DNA of 6,260 bases. Source: JACPSX01 sp035288405 [NCBI: bacterium]. Its GTDB lineage: Bacteria; JACPSX01. The stretch's first letter is position 1. Every line of letters starts with the position of its first letter. Location of the stretch: positions 1-6,260 of the forward strand of contig DATEAK010000391.1 of NCBI GenBank assembly GCA_035288405.1, written 5' to 3'. Position numbers and translations under genes: made by a program. Of the stretch, positions 1 through 6,260 are shown piece by piece. The notes beneath the pieces are model-generated. The model searched no databases. It worked only from the letters and a program-made list of their open reading frames with translations, and was not told where the DNA came from.

Positions 1-730
1 CCCGAAGGAGTCCTTGCCAGATGCCGAACCACTTGAGGTTGCGCACGGCCTTCATGCGATCATCCGTGGTTTCAGCTGTGATAAAGCGCTCGAACACCTT
101 GAACAGGGAAGCGACACCGAACTCCTGAGCCACGGTAGCACAGGCCCTCTTGTCGATCCCCCAGTGCAGCACGGCGCTGGAGGGGCAAGCGTAGAGACAG
201 CGGCTGCAGGTCTCGCCGATGCAGACCTGCTCGGTCATCTTGGCGTCGGGCTCCAGCTCCGCAGTTGTCAGGATGCAGGTGGTGTAGCAACGCGGACCGA
301 ATTCGCGGGTCATAAGATTCAGCTCGAGCCCCAGCGTGCCCAGGCCCGCCTCGATGGCCACGTGGCGGGTGGAGAGATATCCGTAGCTGCCGTGCTTCAT
401 CTCCCAGGAGGTCTCCTGGGCGGCGGTTTGAAAGGCGTAGGATCCTTCCTGCTCCAAATAGCGGGCGATCCGGTAGGCGATCTTGTCGTGCTCGCGCAGG
501 ACGAGCTGGTCCAGGTGGTGCACGCAGGCCATGCTTTTGGCGCGAAAGGCCCCCGCGGGGATGCGCTTCACGATGGCGACTAGACTTTTCATCTCGGGGG
601 AAATATTCGCAGGAATCTGGGGAACCTTGAGATCCGGGGGATTCTTATTTATCGTTTGGGCACTGCAGATTCCCACCAGGTCTGCACCAAGTTCTTTCCC
701 CTTCTGTTTTACTTTCTCAGCGGTAAGCAC
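1..730 (-). CDS. QueG-like 4Fe-4S protein (epoxyqueuosine reductase-related), 3' end missing
   Basis: This is a partial gene: 243 codons are open from a GTG at 730 to the left edge, and the C-terminus is outside the window. The GTG is chosen because GGAGG lies 6 bases upstream (737-741) within a G-rich run. The N-terminus (LGADLVGIC, residues 14-22) and the segment HVAIEAGLGTLGLELNL (123-139) resemble the cobalamin/Fe-S family that includes epoxyqueuosine reductase QueG and reductive-dehalogenase-like proteins. A ferredoxin-type cluster follows with C170, C175, C178 and C182 before Pro, and a further C197 that could serve the second cluster. QueG itself reduces epoxyqueuosine in tRNA, but many relatives have other or unknown substrates, so I assign the family only. 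No Tat or Sec signal is seen, so it is probably cytoplasmic. Third-position G+C rises abruptly after codon 50, and the first cluster cysteine is spaced unusually (CxxxxCxxCxxxCP). Family call is firm; exact function is not. Confidence 0.82.
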   Translation of the reverse strand, partial: MLTAEKVKQKGKELGADLVGICSAQTINKNPPDLKVPQIPANISPEMKSLVAIVKRIPAGAFRAKSMACVHHLDQLVLREHDKIAYRIARYLEQEGSYAFQTAAQETSWEMKHGSYGYLSTRHVAIEAGLGTLGLELNLMTREFGPRCYTTCILTTAELEPDAKMTEQVCIGETCSRCLYACPSSAVLHWGIDKRACATVAQEFGVASLFKVFERFITAETTDDRMKAVRNLKWFGIWQGLLR

Positions 731-736
731 TAGGAA

Positions 737-741
737 CCTCC
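737..741 (-). promoter_or_regulatory. Ribosome binding site deciding the GTG start at 730
   Basis: On the minus strand GGAGG, inside the run GAGGGGGGAGG, sits 6 bases before GTG at 730. There is no in-frame ATG near this point: the first methionine codon downstream is residue 47, which would remove the conserved LGADLVGI segment. Confidence 0.75.
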
Positions 742-814
742 CCCCTCAAGGGAATTGCCCATTTCTAACAGGCTTCATTTTAGAAGGTTGCCATGTCGCT
801 GGATTTCTTAGTAG

Positions 815-823
815 TTTATACCA
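815..823 (-). promoter_or_regulatory. Possible extended -10 promoter for the QueG-like gene
   Basis: The minus strand reads TGGTATAAA, an extended -10 form (TGn plus 5 of 6 matches to TATAAT), about 85 bases upstream of the GTG start. A perfect TTGACA lies further up at 849-844, but the 23-base spacing is too long for a standard sigma70 pair. With the better spacing of 17 bases the -10 would be TAATGG, which is poor. The start of transcription would fall near 808, giving an untranslated leader of about 78 bases. Confidence 0.35.
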
Positions 824-962
824 TTACCATCCCAACGCTTTGGTGTCAACGAAGCCGCTATCGTTTGCCCGCTTCACGTCTCACAGAAAGGTATGGGCAC
901 AGGCCAGATTGTTTTCTATACAACGGGGAAGACACATGGGACCGGGTAGTGGTGATTCCACA

Positions 963-991
963 TTGACAGGCAGTTAGCCGTGGTGTAGAAG
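963..991 (+). promoter_or_regulatory. Sigma70-type promoter of the CRP-like regulator gene
   Basis: A perfect -35 box TTGACA (963-968) is followed by 17 bases and then TAGAAG (986-991, 4 of 6 matches to TATAAT). Transcription would start near 998, leaving a leader of about 19 bases that contains the ribosome binding site GGAGG (1007-1011). A short inverted repeat, GTGG-TGATT-CCAC (949-961), abuts the -35 box and could be an operator, but it does not match the TGTGA-N6-TCACA pattern. Confidence 0.55.
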
Positions 992-1016
992 GCAAAAGAA
1001 TCCACTGGAGGCAGAG

Positions 1017-1715
1017 ATGATGAACAAGGAAGCCTTTTTGCGGCAGGTCAGCCTCTTTAGCGACCTCTCCGATGAGGAGATCCGGGAACTGGAGACCGTC
1101 GTCCAGGAACGTTCCTTCCGGAAAAATGAGGTCATCTTCCACGTGCAGGATCTGGGTAGTGCTCTGTTTGTTATCAAGAAAGGGAGCGTCAAGGTGAGCA
1201 TGGAGGACCGGCACGGAAAAGAGCTCATCTTACGGATTCTGGAAGAGGGGGAGTTTTTCGGGGAGATGTCCTTGCTTGATGGTGATTATCGCTCGGCCAC
1301 CGTGACGGCACTGGAGCCTTGCCAGGCCATGGTTCTCTTTCGTGACGAGTTCTTGAAATTTATCCCAAGACATCCCAAAGTGGTTATGAAGATCCTCACG
1401 ACGCTGAGTCTGCGACTCCGCAAGGCCAATGAGAAGATCCGGCGCCTGGTCTTTGCCGATGCCTATGAAAAAGTGGCCTCGATTCTTCTGGATTTGCTTG
1501 AAGAGAGAAAAATTCCCTTGAGTGCCGGAGCCGAGATCCCCCTTTCGCTAACGCGTAAAGAACTCGCGGATCTGGTTGGGATTTCCCGTGAGACACTAAC
1601 CCGAGTTTTGGCCGATTTTCAAAAGGCAGGCTTGGTTCGAATCGAGCGTCGGCGGATTGCGATCATTCACCCCGACAAGCTCAAGCGGGAAGCAGCAGGT
1701 TCCTTTTCTGTGTGA
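1017..1715 (+). CDS. CRP/FNR-family transcriptional regulator
   Basis: A 232-residue protein with the usual CRP two-domain layout: an N-terminal cyclic-nucleotide-binding beta barrel (about 7-125), a dimerisation helix (about 120-155) and a C-terminal winged helix-turn-helix (about 175-217). The phosphate-binding cassette is intact (FGE at 81-83, RSA at 92-94), so it may bind a cyclic nucleotide, though the ligand cannot be named from sequence. The recognition helix SRETLTR (190-196) keeps the Arg-Glu-x-x-x-Arg pattern of E. coli CRP, which predicts TGTGA half-sites. There is one cysteine only (C102) and none at the N-terminus, so it is not an oxygen-sensing Fe-S FNR. GGAGG lies 5 bases before the first of two tandem ATG codons (8 before the second), so translation may begin at either. 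It appears to be a single-gene unit, divergent from the QueG-like gene and convergent with the membrane-protein gene. Confidence 0.93.
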   Translation: MMNKEAFLRQVSLFSDLSDEEIRELETVVQERSFRKNEVIFHVQDLGSALFVIKKGSVKVSMEDRHGKELILRILEEGEFFGEMSLLDGDYRSATVTALEPCQAMVLFRDEFLKFIPRHPKVVMKILTTLSLRLRKANEKIRRLVFADAYEKVASILLDLLEERKIPLSAGAEIPLSLTRKELADLVGISRETLTRVLADFQKAGLVRIERRRIAIIHPDKLKREAAGSFSV

Positions 1716-2931: not shown

Positions 2932-3564
2932 CTACAATACCTCGCCAGTCAGAAATGGGTTTGTGCGGCGCTCCCAGCCCACGGTCGTTTCGGGGCCGTG
3001 ACCGGAATAGACGACCGTATCCTCCGGCAGGGTCAGAAGCCGGTTCTTGATGGACGAGATCAGAGTCTGGTAGTCCCCTCCGGGAAAATCGGTACGTCCT
3101 ATGGAGCCGGCAAAGAGAGCATCTCCCACAAAGACGCAATTGTCGATGAGGAAACTGACGCCGCCGGGTGAATGTCCTGGAGTTGCGAGCACTTTGATGG
3201 TCTTATGACCAAGCGGTAGAAGTTCTTCCGCTTGCAGAAACCGGTCCGCTTCCGGCTTCCGAAAGTTGGAGATGCCAAACATGGCGGCAGACTGTGGAGC
3301 GTTTTCCAGGATGCGGAGCTCCCCTGCATGAATTGCGAAGGGTATCCCCGTTCGTTCCCTTAGTTCCTGGACTCCCGCAATATGGTCAATATGCCCGTGG
3401 GTGTTGATGATGCTTTGCAAGGTAAGTCCGTGGTTCGAGACCAGCTGCAGTAGCCGATCCGTGTCACCACCTGGATCAATGACATAGGCGGTCCGGCTCT
3501 GCTCATCTCCCAGGAGATAGGTATTTTCTGCAAAGGGTCCAACGGTCAGGCATTCGATGATCAA
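2932..3564 (-). CDS. Metallo-beta-lactamase-fold hydrolase, glyoxalase II-like
   Basis: A 210-residue cytoplasmic protein of the metallo-beta-lactamase superfamily, hydroxyacylglutathione-hydrolase-like branch. Visible metal ligands are THGHIDH (55-61), H131 in TPGHSPGG, D148 in GDALFAGSIGRTDFPGGD (147-164) and H189 in SGHGPETT. It ends with the branch-typical ERRTNPFL. It lacks the extra C-terminal glutathione-binding domain of classical GloB, so it may hydrolyse a different thioester; the substrate is open. Start: TTG at 3564 is preceded by GGAAGGAG with 5 bases spacing and gives the N-terminus MIIECLTVGPFAENTYLL typical of the family and of its usual length near 210. A longer TTG start at 3600 falls inside the predicted -10 box and is rejected. 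First gene of a two-gene operon with the downstream membrane protein. Confidence 0.92.
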   Translation of the reverse strand: MIIECLTVGPFAENTYLLGDEQSRTAYVIDPGGDTDRLLQLVSNHGLTLQSIINTHGHIDHIAGVQELRERTGIPFAIHAGELRILENAPQSAAMFGISNFRKPEADRFLQAEELLPLGHKTIKVLATPGHSPGGVSFLIDNCVFVGDALFAGSIGRTDFPGGDYQTLISSIKNRLLTLPEDTVVYSGHGPETTVGWERRTNPFLTGEVL

Positions 3565-3569
3565 ATTTG

Positions 3570-3577
3570 CTCCTTCC
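3570..3577 (-). promoter_or_regulatory. Ribosome binding site fixing the TTG start at 3564
   Basis: The minus strand has GGAAGGAG, then 5 bases (CAAAT), then TTG. This is the strongest Shine-Dalgarno sequence near the gene and places the start where family members begin. Confidence 0.75.
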
Positions 3578-3598
3578 TTTGATCGGGAAAGGATCTTC

Positions 3599-3627
3599 AA
3601 AATACTTCATTTTTAGGGAACTGACAA
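3599..3627 (-). promoter_or_regulatory. Sigma70-type promoter of the hydrolase/membrane-protein operon
   Basis: On the minus strand TTGTCA (3627-3622, 5 of 6 matches) is followed by exactly 17 bases and TATTTT (3604-3599, 4 of 6). Transcription would begin near 3592, about 28 bases before the TTG start at 3564, leaving room for the ribosome binding site. It faces the plus-strand promoter at 3677-3705, so this is a divergent control region. Confidence 0.55.
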
Positions 3628-3658
3628 GGGAGGGGCGGACATTTCACATGCTACCAAC

Positions 3659-3677
3659 AGCTCCTGGGGAAGCTCCT
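3659..3677 (+). repeat. Short direct repeat at the -35 region of the plus-strand operon
   Basis: AGCTCCT occurs at 3659-3665 and again at 3671-3677, a 12-base period, the second copy ending in the first base of the -35 box TTGACA. It could be a regulator-binding direct repeat, but 7 bases is short enough to arise by chance. Confidence 0.3.
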
Positions 3678-3705
3678 TGACAGATAGGGACCATTCCGTT
3701 AGCTT
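3677..3705 (+). promoter_or_regulatory. Possible sigma70 promoter of the cysteine-rich protein/redoxin operon
   Basis: A perfect TTGACA (3677-3682) is followed by 17 bases and TAGCTT (3700-3705), a weak -10 with 3 of 6 matches. Transcription would start near 3712, about 44 bases before the ATG at 3756. A weak -10 with a perfect -35 would be consistent with activator help, but that is inference. Confidence 0.4.
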
Positions 3706-3755
3706 AAAGGCCCCTGCTCGAAGGGATCGGCTTTCTGGAAGAAAAGAGTCAAACC

Positions 3756-4388
3756 ATGACACAGTGCGTTTACTGTCAGAAACAAAAAGGCAAACGAAAC
3801 TGTCCTGCCCTGAAAGGGCTGATTTGTCCCCAGTGCTGCGGCCAATACCGCCTGGCAAAAATTTCTTGTCCCAGCGATTGCCCTTATCTGGAAAGTCATG
3901 GAGCCTACCAGCGGGGCAAAGCAGGAGAGCGCTTTACCCATGAGAGGCGTAAGCTTTATTACGAGATTTATCAGCAGGGTGGTGAGCAGGCTGCCCAGTT
4001 CTTGAACCTGCTCGATAACCTCTTCTATCTTCATTTTTCTCGTCGGCCGAATGGCCAGGACTGGGAAGTTCACTCGGCCCTGGAGGAGATCCGGCGCCGG
4101 ATGAGCCCGGTTACGATCCCTGGGGTCAGCGGTCTAGCCGCTGGTGAGGCGATCTGGAAGGAGTTAAAGGAAATCCTGGACAGGCAACCCATCGACCAGG
4201 ACATGGGAAGGCGGGTTCTTGACAAGGTGCTGGAAAATTTGAAAGCCATTTCTCCTGATTATCATCATTCGAATCGTTTCTTGAGCGGCCTCTTGGGTTA
4301 TGTAGAGTCCACCTCTCCAGAGATGGTCGAGAAGCTTAAGCAATCTCGACAGCAGGAAGCGACCTCCCTGATTTTTCCGGCCCGCTGA
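3756..4388 (+). CDS. Cysteine-rich N-terminal zinc-finger-like protein, function unknown
   Basis: I do not recognise a named function. The 210-residue protein begins with a compact block of eight cysteines (C4, C7, C16, C24, C27, C28, C38, C42) in the pattern CxxC...CPAL...CxxCCG...R...I.CPxDCPYL, which resembles two treble-clef or zinc-ribbon-like sites; I recall similar uncharacterised proteins in environmental bacteria. The rest (about 50-210) has no cysteine, is charged and mostly helical in look, with Glu/Lys-rich stretches near 108-120 and 133-165. There is no signal peptide or membrane segment, so it is probably cytoplasmic. The ribosome binding site is weak (AAGAG about 7 bases before the ATG). 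It is the first gene of an operon, 21 bases before the redoxin gene. Possible roles include metal or redox sensing or nucleic-acid binding, none shown by the sequence. It is certainly a real gene, judging by its conserved-looking motif and operon position. Confidence 0.85.
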   Translation: MTQCVYCQKQKGKRNCPALKGLICPQCCGQYRLAKISCPSDCPYLESHGAYQRGKAGERFTHERRKLYYEIYQQGGEQAAQFLNLLDNLFYLHFSRRPNGQDWEVHSALEEIRRRMSPVTIPGVSGLAAGEAIWKELKEILDRQPIDQDMGRRVLDKVLENLKAISPDYHHSNRFLSGLLGYVESTSPEMVEKLKQSRQQEATSLIFPAR

Positions 4389-4409
4389 CTTCCGAGGAAA
4401 TGAGGATTT

Positions 4410-4970
4410 ATGAATCCATTTCCCGGCCATCCCCCCGGACTTGGTGATCGGGCTCCGGATATAAGACTGCAATGGAAAGATGGAGAATTCGTTTCCCTCT
4501 CTTTTTTTTGGACGCAGAGTCCAATTCTTCTCGTTTTCTTGCGCCATTTTGGTTGCATTTTCTGTCGGCAGCAGCTCGGCGAGTTGCGTTTTTCCTACGG
4601 AGAGATCCGGCGGCTGGGAACAGAAGTGGTTACCGTTTCCCTGGCTGGCCCACAAAGAACAGAAGCATTTTGCCAGGATCAAGGCGTGGCTTTCCCTTGC
4701 CTGGCTGACCCTGAAGGCAAAGCGTTTCAGGCTTACCGTTTGCCGAGAGGAGAATTTTGGCAAATTTTAGGCCCACCGGTTTTGGGAAGGGGAATTCAGG
4801 CCTTTCTACGCGGAGCCCGGTTGGGTCGCCCCGAGGGCTCGGTGAGACAACTTCCAGGCGCCTTTCTCGTGAATCAGCAAGGGTTCATCCAGATAGCGCA
4901 CCGGGCCAGGCATGCTGGAGATATCCCACCCGTGGATTTCTGGCTTCAGGCGATGCGGGGTTCAAGGTAG
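4410..4970 (+). CDS. AhpC/TSA-type redoxin (peroxiredoxin-like, CxxC active site)
   Basis: A 186-residue thioredoxin-fold protein. The N-terminus LGDRAPDI leads into a beta strand and the active-site segment FLRHFGCIFCRQQ (43-55) with C49 and C52, followed by a helix. The C-terminal part has features of the peroxiredoxin-like/SelL-related redoxin group: a Pro-Gly turn (QLPGAFLVNQQG) and the ending HRARHAGDIPPVDFW. Members are expected to reduce peroxides or act in thiol-disulfide exchange, but the physiological substrate is not known for most. No signal peptide is evident, so it is probably cytoplasmic. The start ATG at 4410 has GAGG (4402-4405) 4 bases upstream and another GAGGA 11 bases upstream. 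It lies 21 bases after the cysteine-rich gene, so the two are probably co-transcribed. Its stop is only 12 bases from the stop of the convergent oxidoreductase gene. Confidence 0.88.
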   Translation: MNPFPGHPPGLGDRAPDIRLQWKDGEFVSLSFFWTQSPILLVFLRHFGCIFCRQQLGELRFSYGEIRRLGTEVVTVSLAGPQRTEAFCQDQGVAFPCLADPEGKAFQAYRLPRGEFWQILGPPVLGRGIQAFLRGARLGRPEGSVRQLPGAFLVNQQGFIQIAHRARHAGDIPPVDFWLQAMRGSR

Positions 4971-4982
4971 CTTCCAAAATCC

Positions 4983-6134
4983 TCAGACCGGCAAGGCGGT
5001 GGAGCGGGTGGCGGCCAGCAGCTTATTGGCCAGGAGAGGGCTAGCTGCCAGCCCCTTCAACAGGAGTTTGCTGAGGAAAGTCGAGCTCGTTCCCAAAGAC
5101 AATAACGCGGCAATTCGGTACTGGCTCCGGAGTTCCCGGTTCCACATGCGGTCATAGACTGATGCCGGCGTCACTTCCCCTATCCCATTTTCGAAAGCTC
5201 TCGCAACAGCCGACGCCGCAAGCTGCCCTCCTCGAAGAGCCATGGAGATTCCTTCTCCTAAAAACGGGGGGATTGTCGCGGCTGCATCTCCGATAAATAG
5301 AACTCCGGATCGCGAGGGGCTGCGTGCCCCCCAGGCAAGGTTGCTCATTCCCTGCCAGCGGCTTACCCGGCGGGCGCTGAGAAGCCTTTCCCGAGCGACA
5401 GGGTTCTTGAGAACCGTAGAACCGAAAATCATCTCTGCGTTTGCCCCTCTTGGCAGGTCGTGCTTCGCCCGAACCAGGAGGCAGAGATTCCACAGGTCTT
5501 CCTCGATATGGACCAAACCTGCATAGCCCCCCGGATAAAAGAAAAGCTCTACACTCCTTTTTCCTGCCTCCACTCCTTGAAAATGGGCCTGGAGTGCCAG
5601 ATCTCCATTTCTACGGACCTGCCAGTCCGGATCGGCCCATTGGCGAAATCGAGAGTGGTGTCCGTCAGCGGCAAGCAGGTACCTGGTTTCCAGAATTTGT
5701 TCTCGACCGGAATGGGAGTCTCGCACGTGAACGCCGCAGATGCGCCCCTGGTCCCAAATGACCCCTGTAGCTCGGGTTCCGGATAGTACCTCGGCCCCGC
5801 ACGCAGCAGCTTTTTCCAAGAGAAGGCCGTCGAGCCGGCTCCTGCTGAGTCCAAAGCCTTCACTTTTTTCCGGAAATGGAATTCTCACCTGCGTCCCCTG
5901 CAGGGAATACAAGGAGCCTTCGCTGATTTTCGAAGCTTCCTGGCGAACCGAATCCAAAACGCCTAACTTATCTAGAATCGTCTTTGCCTCAGGGCTTATG
6001 AAATCTCCGCACAGCTTGGTTCGAGGAAATGTCCGGGCTTCAATTACCGTAACCGGTATTCCTTTGGCAGCGAGAAGAGCCGAGGCTGTTGCTCCGGCCG
6101 GTCCACCACCGATCACCAAGACTTGCCGCTTCAT
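4983..6134 (-). CDS. FAD-dependent oxidoreductase, geranylgeranyl-reductase-like
   Basis: A 383-residue flavoprotein of the geranylgeranyl reductase / p-hydroxybenzoate hydroxylase-like superfamily. The N-terminal Rossmann motif GGGPAG (9-14) ends its second strand with an acidic residue (E32) for FAD ribose binding. The segment KLCGDFISP (40-48) is typical of the geranylgeranyl reductase branch. A second FAD motif is the DG pair in AADGHHS (155-161), and the third is the GD in GVLFIGDAAATIPPFLGEGI (277-296). The family reduces isoprenoid chains or oxidises aromatic and polyketide rings; the substrate here is not determinable. The start ATG at 6134 is favoured over an open upstream extension because GGGPAG then sits at the usual position and because the codon overlaps the upstream stop as ATGA. 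AAGGA about 9 bases upstream can act as ribosome binding site. It probably works with the methyltransferase encoded immediately upstream. Confidence 0.92.
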   Translation of the reverse strand: MKRQVLVIGGGPAGATASALLAAKGIPVTVIEARTFPRTKLCGDFISPEAKTILDKLGVLDSVRQEASKISEGSLYSLQGTQVRIPFPEKSEGFGLSRSRLDGLLLEKAAACGAEVLSGTRATGVIWDQGRICGVHVRDSHSGREQILETRYLLAADGHHSRFRQWADPDWQVRRNGDLALQAHFQGVEAGKRSVELFFYPGGYAGLVHIEEDLWNLCLLVRAKHDLPRGANAEMIFGSTVLKNPVARERLLSARRVSRWQGMSNLAWGARSPSRSGVLFIGDAAATIPPFLGEGISMALRGGQLAASAVARAFENGIGEVTPASVYDRMWNRELRSQYRIAALLSLGTSSTFLSKLLLKGLAASPLLANKLLAATRSTALPV

Positions 6135-6260
6135 TTCCCGGATTCCTTTGATTCGATGAGGAGGCAGTAACGGTAGGGGAAGTGGCGAAAGAGATCCCAC
6201 CGTGTGGCGCCCGTGGCTTGCGCCAGTACCCGAACCTCACTCGCGGAAAAACCCCTGCGC
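6131..6260 (-). CDS. Probable SAM-dependent methyltransferase, C-terminal 42 residues only
   Basis: An open frame enters from the right edge and ends at TGA (6133-6131); only 42 residues are present. The tail contains GFSASEVRVLAQATGA followed by WDLFRHFPYRYCLLI, which resembles the last helix and the final beta strands of class I SAM-dependent methyltransferases (an 'F.P.R' turn before the last strand). No catalytic motif is inside the window, so the family call rests on this short tail and on the common pairing of such genes with geranylgeranyl-reductase-like flavoproteins. Its stop overlaps the start of the oxidoreductase gene as ATGA, a sign of translational coupling. Confidence 0.6.
   Translation of the reverse strand, partial: RRGFSASEVRVLAQATGATRWDLFRHFPYRYCLLIESKESGK

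Follow-up and report, generated by a model that had tools for sequence, protein, structure and literature searches.

The locus and its close relative

The DNA analysed here (the window) is a stretch of 6,260 nucleotides from the bacterium JACPSX01 sp035288405 (assembly GCA_035288405.1, contig DATEAK010000391.1), at whose left edge lies the truncated gene of an iron-sulfur protein, followed by a divergent intergenic region and the gene of a regulator (Table 1). The sole close ortholog of the truncated gene that was found belongs to a Candidatus Tectomicrobia MAG (G001, locus L001), with 89% protein identity over residues 2-243. Contig C83 of this MAG tracks the window from its left edge to position 4021 and contig C287 tracks it from 4013 to 6255, so that the window is collinear with the MAG genome on each of two contigs. 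Positions 4013-4021 bridge the ends of C83 and C287 inside one gene, which suggests the order of these two contigs in the MAG.

Table 1. Features at the left end of the window (GC3, fraction of third codon positions that are G or C).
Feature	Position	Strand	Remarks
5' part of the QueG/reductive-dehalogenase-like iron-sulfur protein gene	2..730	-	243 codons; GTG start at 730; 3' end lost at the window edge
Codons 1-50	581..730	-	GC3 0.50, in line with the rest of the window
G+C-rich tract, codons 51-196	143..580	-	GC3 0.88; stretched by the paired scan to codon 203 (window position 122)
Codons 197-243	2..142	-	GC3 0.70, still above 0.59
Antisense open frame	2..583	+	Ends in a stop codon formed opposite codon 50 (CTA in the sense strand)
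Divergent intergenic region between the QueG-like and regulator genes	731..1016		48% G+C at 701-1000
CRP/FNR-family regulator gene	1017..1715	+	Open reading frame and profile matches

Positions 729-953, upstream of the truncated gene, were not aligned to the relative by blastn; the 225 unaligned bases face 129 in the relative (about 96 longer here), so an insertion or deletion probably adjoins the gene. Further along, positions 3756-4388 encode a protein of 210 residues whose N-terminus is rich in cysteine (CVYCQKQKGKRNCPALKGLICPQCCG) and whose counterpart in the relative shares 84% identity with it; neither Pfam nor NCBIfam gave a match to it at 0.001.

Past the point at which the window ends on the left, the MAG contains the rest of the gene, a tandem paralog and a uroporphyrinogen-III-synthase-like/hemE frame, and further on hemH, a protoporphyrinogen oxidase gene and an adenine-deaminase-like gene. 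The frame after the paralog (L001, 5820-7742) joins a uroporphyrinogen-III-synthase-like part and a uroporphyrinogen decarboxylase in a single 640-residue product, which scores 142.5 bits for the former (below the cut-off of 273) and 397.5 bits for the latter (cut-off 302.95).

Among 78 genomes around G001, 35 (G001 counted) had some match to the gene, the next best being G048 with 50% identity. A tandem paralog of the QueG/reductive-dehalogenase-like gene is present in both G001 (L001, 3603-5542) and G048 (L034, 8477-10691); the pair is accompanied by heme-synthesis genes in the former and, in the latter, by genes named by eye from their translations as ABC-transporter, nitrilase-like and dehydrogenase-E1-like. 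The retention of the pair in both genomes suggests that the two proteins work together. A search of the phylum set, which comprised G001 alone, returned nothing besides this genome, and six peptide patterns run against the genome collection identified one locus only, that of G001 itself. The same six patterns and a regulator query gave no match in IMG/VR, such scans reaching close relatives only, and plasmids yielded three weak matches with identities of at most 41.3%.

Nature of the encoded protein

Against TIGR00276, the equivalog profile of QueG with a curated cut-off of 200, the window fragment scored 44.3 bits over residues 119-197 and the full-length ortholog of the MAG scored 42.1 bits. 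Against the reductive dehalogenase profile TIGR02486 (curated cut-off 160.35), the corresponding values were 26.4 bits (residues 58-191) and 33.5 bits, and the fragment had no Pfam match at 0.001. The full ortholog matched PDB chains weakly, namely the reductive dehalogenase/epoxyqueuosine reductase structures 8q4h (5e-8) and 5d08 (1e-5). The likeness to QueG and the reductive dehalogenases thus consists of weak profile and structure matches, whereas the scores lie far under both curated cut-offs and the gene is paired in tandem in G001 and G048. The label "QueG-like" attached to the gene by the original prediction holds only in a broad sense; judged by its profile scores, the gene is not QueG proper. 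Two cysteine-rich stretches in the full ortholog, picked out by eye from a known motif and with no more than sub-threshold Pfam matches, are presumably iron-sulfur sites, and the window fragment ends ahead of the second of them.

The expectation that one protein reads across the joint without a frameshift was borne out, since residues 2-243 align with the relative without a gap at the identity given above. This gapless alignment excludes a frameshift or a wrong start as the source of the altered composition. In all 10 codon blocks set against the relative, moreover, the third positions were the most variable ones, which also counts against a frameshift.

A step in synonymous codon choice

The GC3 counts from which the analysis started are exact (25 of 50 in codons 1-50 and 44 of 50 in codons 51-100), and over the whole of codons 51-243 third positions are G or C in 161 of 193 cases. 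Across the 243 codons the best single change point falls after codon 50, where GC3 passes from 0.50 to 0.83 with a log-likelihood gain of 11.0 (11.02), a value matched by 0 of 5000 codon shuffles in one run and by 1 of 1000 in a second. Alternative breaks that score within 2 log units of the best lie after codons 43-44 or 49-54, corresponding to window positions of about 569-602, which agrees with the break previously placed near 580. The step concerns synonymous choice and shows up both in two-fold and in four-fold codons.

The other six genes of the window, pooled, have a GC3 of 0.59 (1573 codons), and the rich stretch, with 0.88 in codons 51-196, is indeed unlike them, as had been noticed. 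When the 1795 codons of the window that are aligned to the relative were scanned for the best segment, codons 51-196 were selected with a gain of 27.0 (0 of 200 shuffles). The original prediction had the rich style run on to the left edge, which is not simply the case: the tract is followed by a stretch of lower GC3 (0.70), which nevertheless stays above the value of the other genes. This second boundary rests on the segment scan (codon 196) and on the paired comparison described below (codon 203), which nearly coincide. The tetranucleotide profile of positions 1-580, suggested as a further check, is the most distant one among 40 overlapping 580-base segments and so does stand out from the rest, which restates the difference in composition.

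On the opposite strand, an open frame covers most of the truncated gene (Table 1). Sense codons CTA, TTA and TCA are stops in the phase of this frame, which we read as a by-product of the high GC3. An antisense gene is not needed as a cause of the rich stretch; the matching strand of the MAG contains two separate open reading frames (3927-4418 and 3516-3908). The repeats recorded in positions 1-1016 comprise two direct pairs, short and imperfect, and an inverted pair of 15 bases, none of which lies at the joint (580). A pair of 16-base segments (138-153 and 897-912, 81% alike) has one copy at the other end of the tract, near 143, and looks like a chance match.

Comparison with the gene of the relative

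The gene of the MAG has no such step, as its best change point gains only 1.6-1.7 and is matched by 637-680 of 1000 shuffles, and the step therefore looks specific to the lineage of the window. The same step in close relatives, which had been named as evidence against recombination or misassembly, was accordingly not seen in the one close relative found. At codon 50, GC3 in the gene of the MAG does rise by 0.09 (0.66 before, 0.75 after), and the two genes have this portion of the 0.33 step in common. Along the MAG, GC3 is 0.60-0.66 in g5, g4 and ggr, 0.68-0.70 in mbl, ydjM and crp, 0.71-0.72 in the QueG-like gene and its paralog, 0.81 in hemDE and 0.72-0.73 in hemH, hemG and the last gene.

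A paired comparison with the relative, from which matches below 60% identity were left out, largely frees the contrast from effects of site and amino acid. The window is poorer than the relative in its other six genes, with 211 discordant codons in which only the window has G or C at the third position and 335 in which only the relative does. Codons 1-50 follow this direction (6 window-only and 14 relative-only), codons 51-203 reverse it (30 and 9), and in codons 204-243 the relative is once more the richer one (3 and 7; GC3 0.72 in the window vs 0.82). When all 615 discordant codons were put through a likelihood scan, which pays for the choice of a segment within the window, codons 51-203 were picked; 5 of 300 and then 25 of 2000 permutations matched this result. 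The significance of the paired scan hinges on the statistic, however, because a cruder maximum-sum version was not significant (251 of 2000 permutations; 225 of 2000 with blocks of 10 and 242 of 2000 with blocks of 25). Gene-level heterogeneity of the paired differences was not significant either (p 0.17), and Fisher tests of codons 51-243 (p 0.007 against codons 1-50 and p 0.0001 against the rest), for which the region was chosen from the same data, are not relied on. With moderate confidence, the composition of the tract differs from that of its flanks beyond site effects, on the basis of the likelihood scan (25 of 2000).

Mosaic genes produced by short-tract homologous recombination are of a known kind in bacteria, and the bounded tract, its different synonymous style, the orthologous gene and the conserved gene order resemble them. 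Homologous recombination (gene conversion) would here have replaced about 440-460 bases, from codon 51 to about codon 196-203, by the version found in a G+C-richer congener, the remainder of the gene being of vertical descent, which we consider possible but doubtful. It is favored by a tract that seems bounded on both sides within the gene, by a relative that has neither tract nor step (a gain of 1.7, matched by 637 of 1000 shuffles) and by the likelihood scan, although the window was picked because it is striking and a p of about 0.01 is weak for that reason. The present case differs from known mosaic genes in that neither a donor nor a divergence break nor a tree conflict emerged from the data, and these three points count against a replacement.

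With regard to divergence, the fraction of synonymous codons that are identical in the relative amounts to 0.56 ahead of the tract, 0.60 within it and 0.65 beyond it, compared with 0.55 in the other genes; it does not fall off inside the tract, and no change in divergence to this one relative appears at a tract boundary. Identity at the amino-acid level is 0.84 before, 0.92 inside and 0.85 after the tract. Trees were built from 14 sequences including that of the window, after a search of 14 loci (L001, L034 and L006-L017) in which homologs that span at most 170 residues or start after residue 14 were left out. Conflicting trees for residues 1-50 and 51-243, as the hypothesis of a foreign segment might lead one to expect, were not obtained: both parts have the same nearest ortholog, with support of 0.386 for the short part and 1.000 for the long one, each with a single close relative in the tree. 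Given the lack of a divergence break and the shared neighbor, a donor outside the clade of the window and the relative, or on the side of the relative, is not indicated. Judged from these identities, the distance of any donor from the relative would need to be similar to that of the recipient. No donor was found in the 78 genomes, which have no near relative besides G001, in the genome collection or in IMG/VR. The tandem paralog is an unlikely conversion donor, because the paralog of the MAG has about 40% protein identity to the window protein.

The same comparisons bear on a chimeric metagenome assembly, in which the contig would cross within the gene from the copy of one species to that of a G+C-richer congener. 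In favor of such a switch, the step does lie near one edge of the window, and the sequence may be a metagenome record. However, the genes to the left and right of the joint stand in the same order as in the relative, so no unrelated DNA has been joined. GC3 is partly back down before the left edge, and a single switch, as in an end-of-contig chimera, therefore fits poorly; synonymous identity is also steady. On account of this fading ahead of the edge and of the preserved gene order to either side, we have marked this explanation down and regard it as improbable. The original prediction had offered recombination and misassembly as the possible causes; the step looks lineage-specific (absent in the MAG), as both require, but neither has gained positive support.

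A third possibility is that local GC-biased conversion, or selection for G- or C-ending codons on the gene body, enriched the tract with no foreign donor. Consistent with this, the effect consists chiefly in a scarcity, within the tract, of codons with A or T in the window and G or C in the relative (9 of 153, vs 335 of 1553 in the other genes). However, the gene body shows no sign of being special; the relative does not keep the antisense frame open throughout, synonymous identity is just 0.60, and such a bias appears very improbable.

Frequency of comparable steps in the relative's genome

An empirical null was drawn from open reading frames (ORFs) of at least 150 codons in 59 pieces of G001, amounting to 582 kb of about 2.9 Mb (about a fifth). 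The pieces came from contigs C1-C38 and C40-C59, with no more than the initial 20 kb taken from any of these, and from C83; ORFs of fewer than 150 codons or with N were excluded, as were those that failed an amino-acid score filter set at 0, -2.2 or -5. The value of -2.2 was tuned to the truncated gene of the window, which narrowly clears it and fails at 0. The filter matters greatly because false ORFs make false steps, so that counts under looser filters are inflated.

From the strictest filter to no filter, a change-point gain of at least 11.02 was reached by 2 of 104, 3 of 199, 7 of 289 and 16 of 391 ORFs (1.5-4.1%), and, when ORFs were cut to their first 243 codons, by 0 of 69, 1 of 145, 3 of 218 and 5 of 282. 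By our arithmetic, the chance of at least one such step among seven genes is about 10-25%. Adjacent 50-codon blocks that jump by at least 19 were present in 2 of 104, 2 of 199, 4 of 289 and 11 of 391 ORFs in the same order of filters. A fixed contrast (codons 51-243 minus codons 1-50) of at least 0.334 was rarer, with 0 of 69, 0 of 145, 2 of 218 and 3 of 282 ORFs, and it has a mean of 0.06 and a standard deviation of 0.08 in the 69 strictest ORFs. Stretches of 193 codons that are at least 0.23 richer than their neighbors (0.25 in the window) were found in 1 of 232 ORFs, or in 5 of 232 when either direction is counted; the rarity of an equally rich stretch beside such neighbors (1 of 232) speaks for recombination. 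Among 1800-codon stretches, a scan gain of at least 27.0 occurred in 0 of 21 with the filter at -2.2, 11 of 49 at -5 and 27 of 84 unfiltered.

Real genes are also more variable than shuffled ones. In 621 blocks of 50 codons from the 104 filtered ORFs, the standard deviation was 4.9 vs a binomial 3.1, and codon shuffles overstate the step because of this overdispersion. Mean GC3 in G001 is 0.65 in codons 1-20 and about 0.72 later, a comparison made in unfiltered ORFs, in which misplaced starts add to the dip. Taken against this null, the step in the window is real, uncommon and by some measures rare, and the window was selected for it.

Origin and significance of the step

Ordinary synonymous-site heterogeneity inside an orthologous gene, to which we give about even chances, would account for the step as follows. 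Third-position G+C in genes of this lineage varies beyond what random codon choice produces, and gene starts are somewhat poorer in GC3 than gene bodies. GC3 in the relative climbs along this stretch toward the QueG-like gene and on to the heme genes, and the window gene would sit at the rich end of the gradient, so that a poor start and an unusually rich middle could together mimic a step. Overdispersion, the start effect, the gradient and the lack of a divergence break are all seen in the data; that these effects suffice without imported DNA is a plausible extension of them. Further in favor of this reading are the equally strong steps and block jumps in the genome of the relative, as well as the non-significant outcomes of the maximum-sum scan and of the gene-level comparison. 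Against it stand the likelihood scan, the rarity of the fixed contrast and of so rich a stretch, the scan gain of 27.0 (0 of 21 with the filter at -2.2) and the tetranucleotide profile of 1-580. Lower GC3 at the 5' ends of genes is a general effect in bacteria, and here too the poor part is the gene start, but the mean effect in G001 is about 0.07 over some 20 codons, compared with 0.33 over 50 codons in the window. Overdispersion, the dip at gene starts and the gradient explain a part of the step; what is left over is due either to a fluctuation or to a short segment taken over from a G+C-richer congener.

Most likely, then, the step reflects ordinary variation or a short swap with a close relative, the former being a little likelier than replacement from a congener and misassembly being unlikely. 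A recent conversion tract of about 450 bases inside the iron-sulfur protein gene, derived from an unsampled G+C-richer congener, is somewhat unlikely. If ordinary heterogeneity is the correct reading, codon-shuffle tests overstate steps inside genes, since one ORF of the relative in 24 to 66 has a step as strong. If the tract was instead acquired by conversion, it would be direct evidence that species of a poorly sampled lineage exchange short homologous segments, and it would reveal congeneric exchange where one close genome was found, on a scale that is missed by ordinary composition screens.
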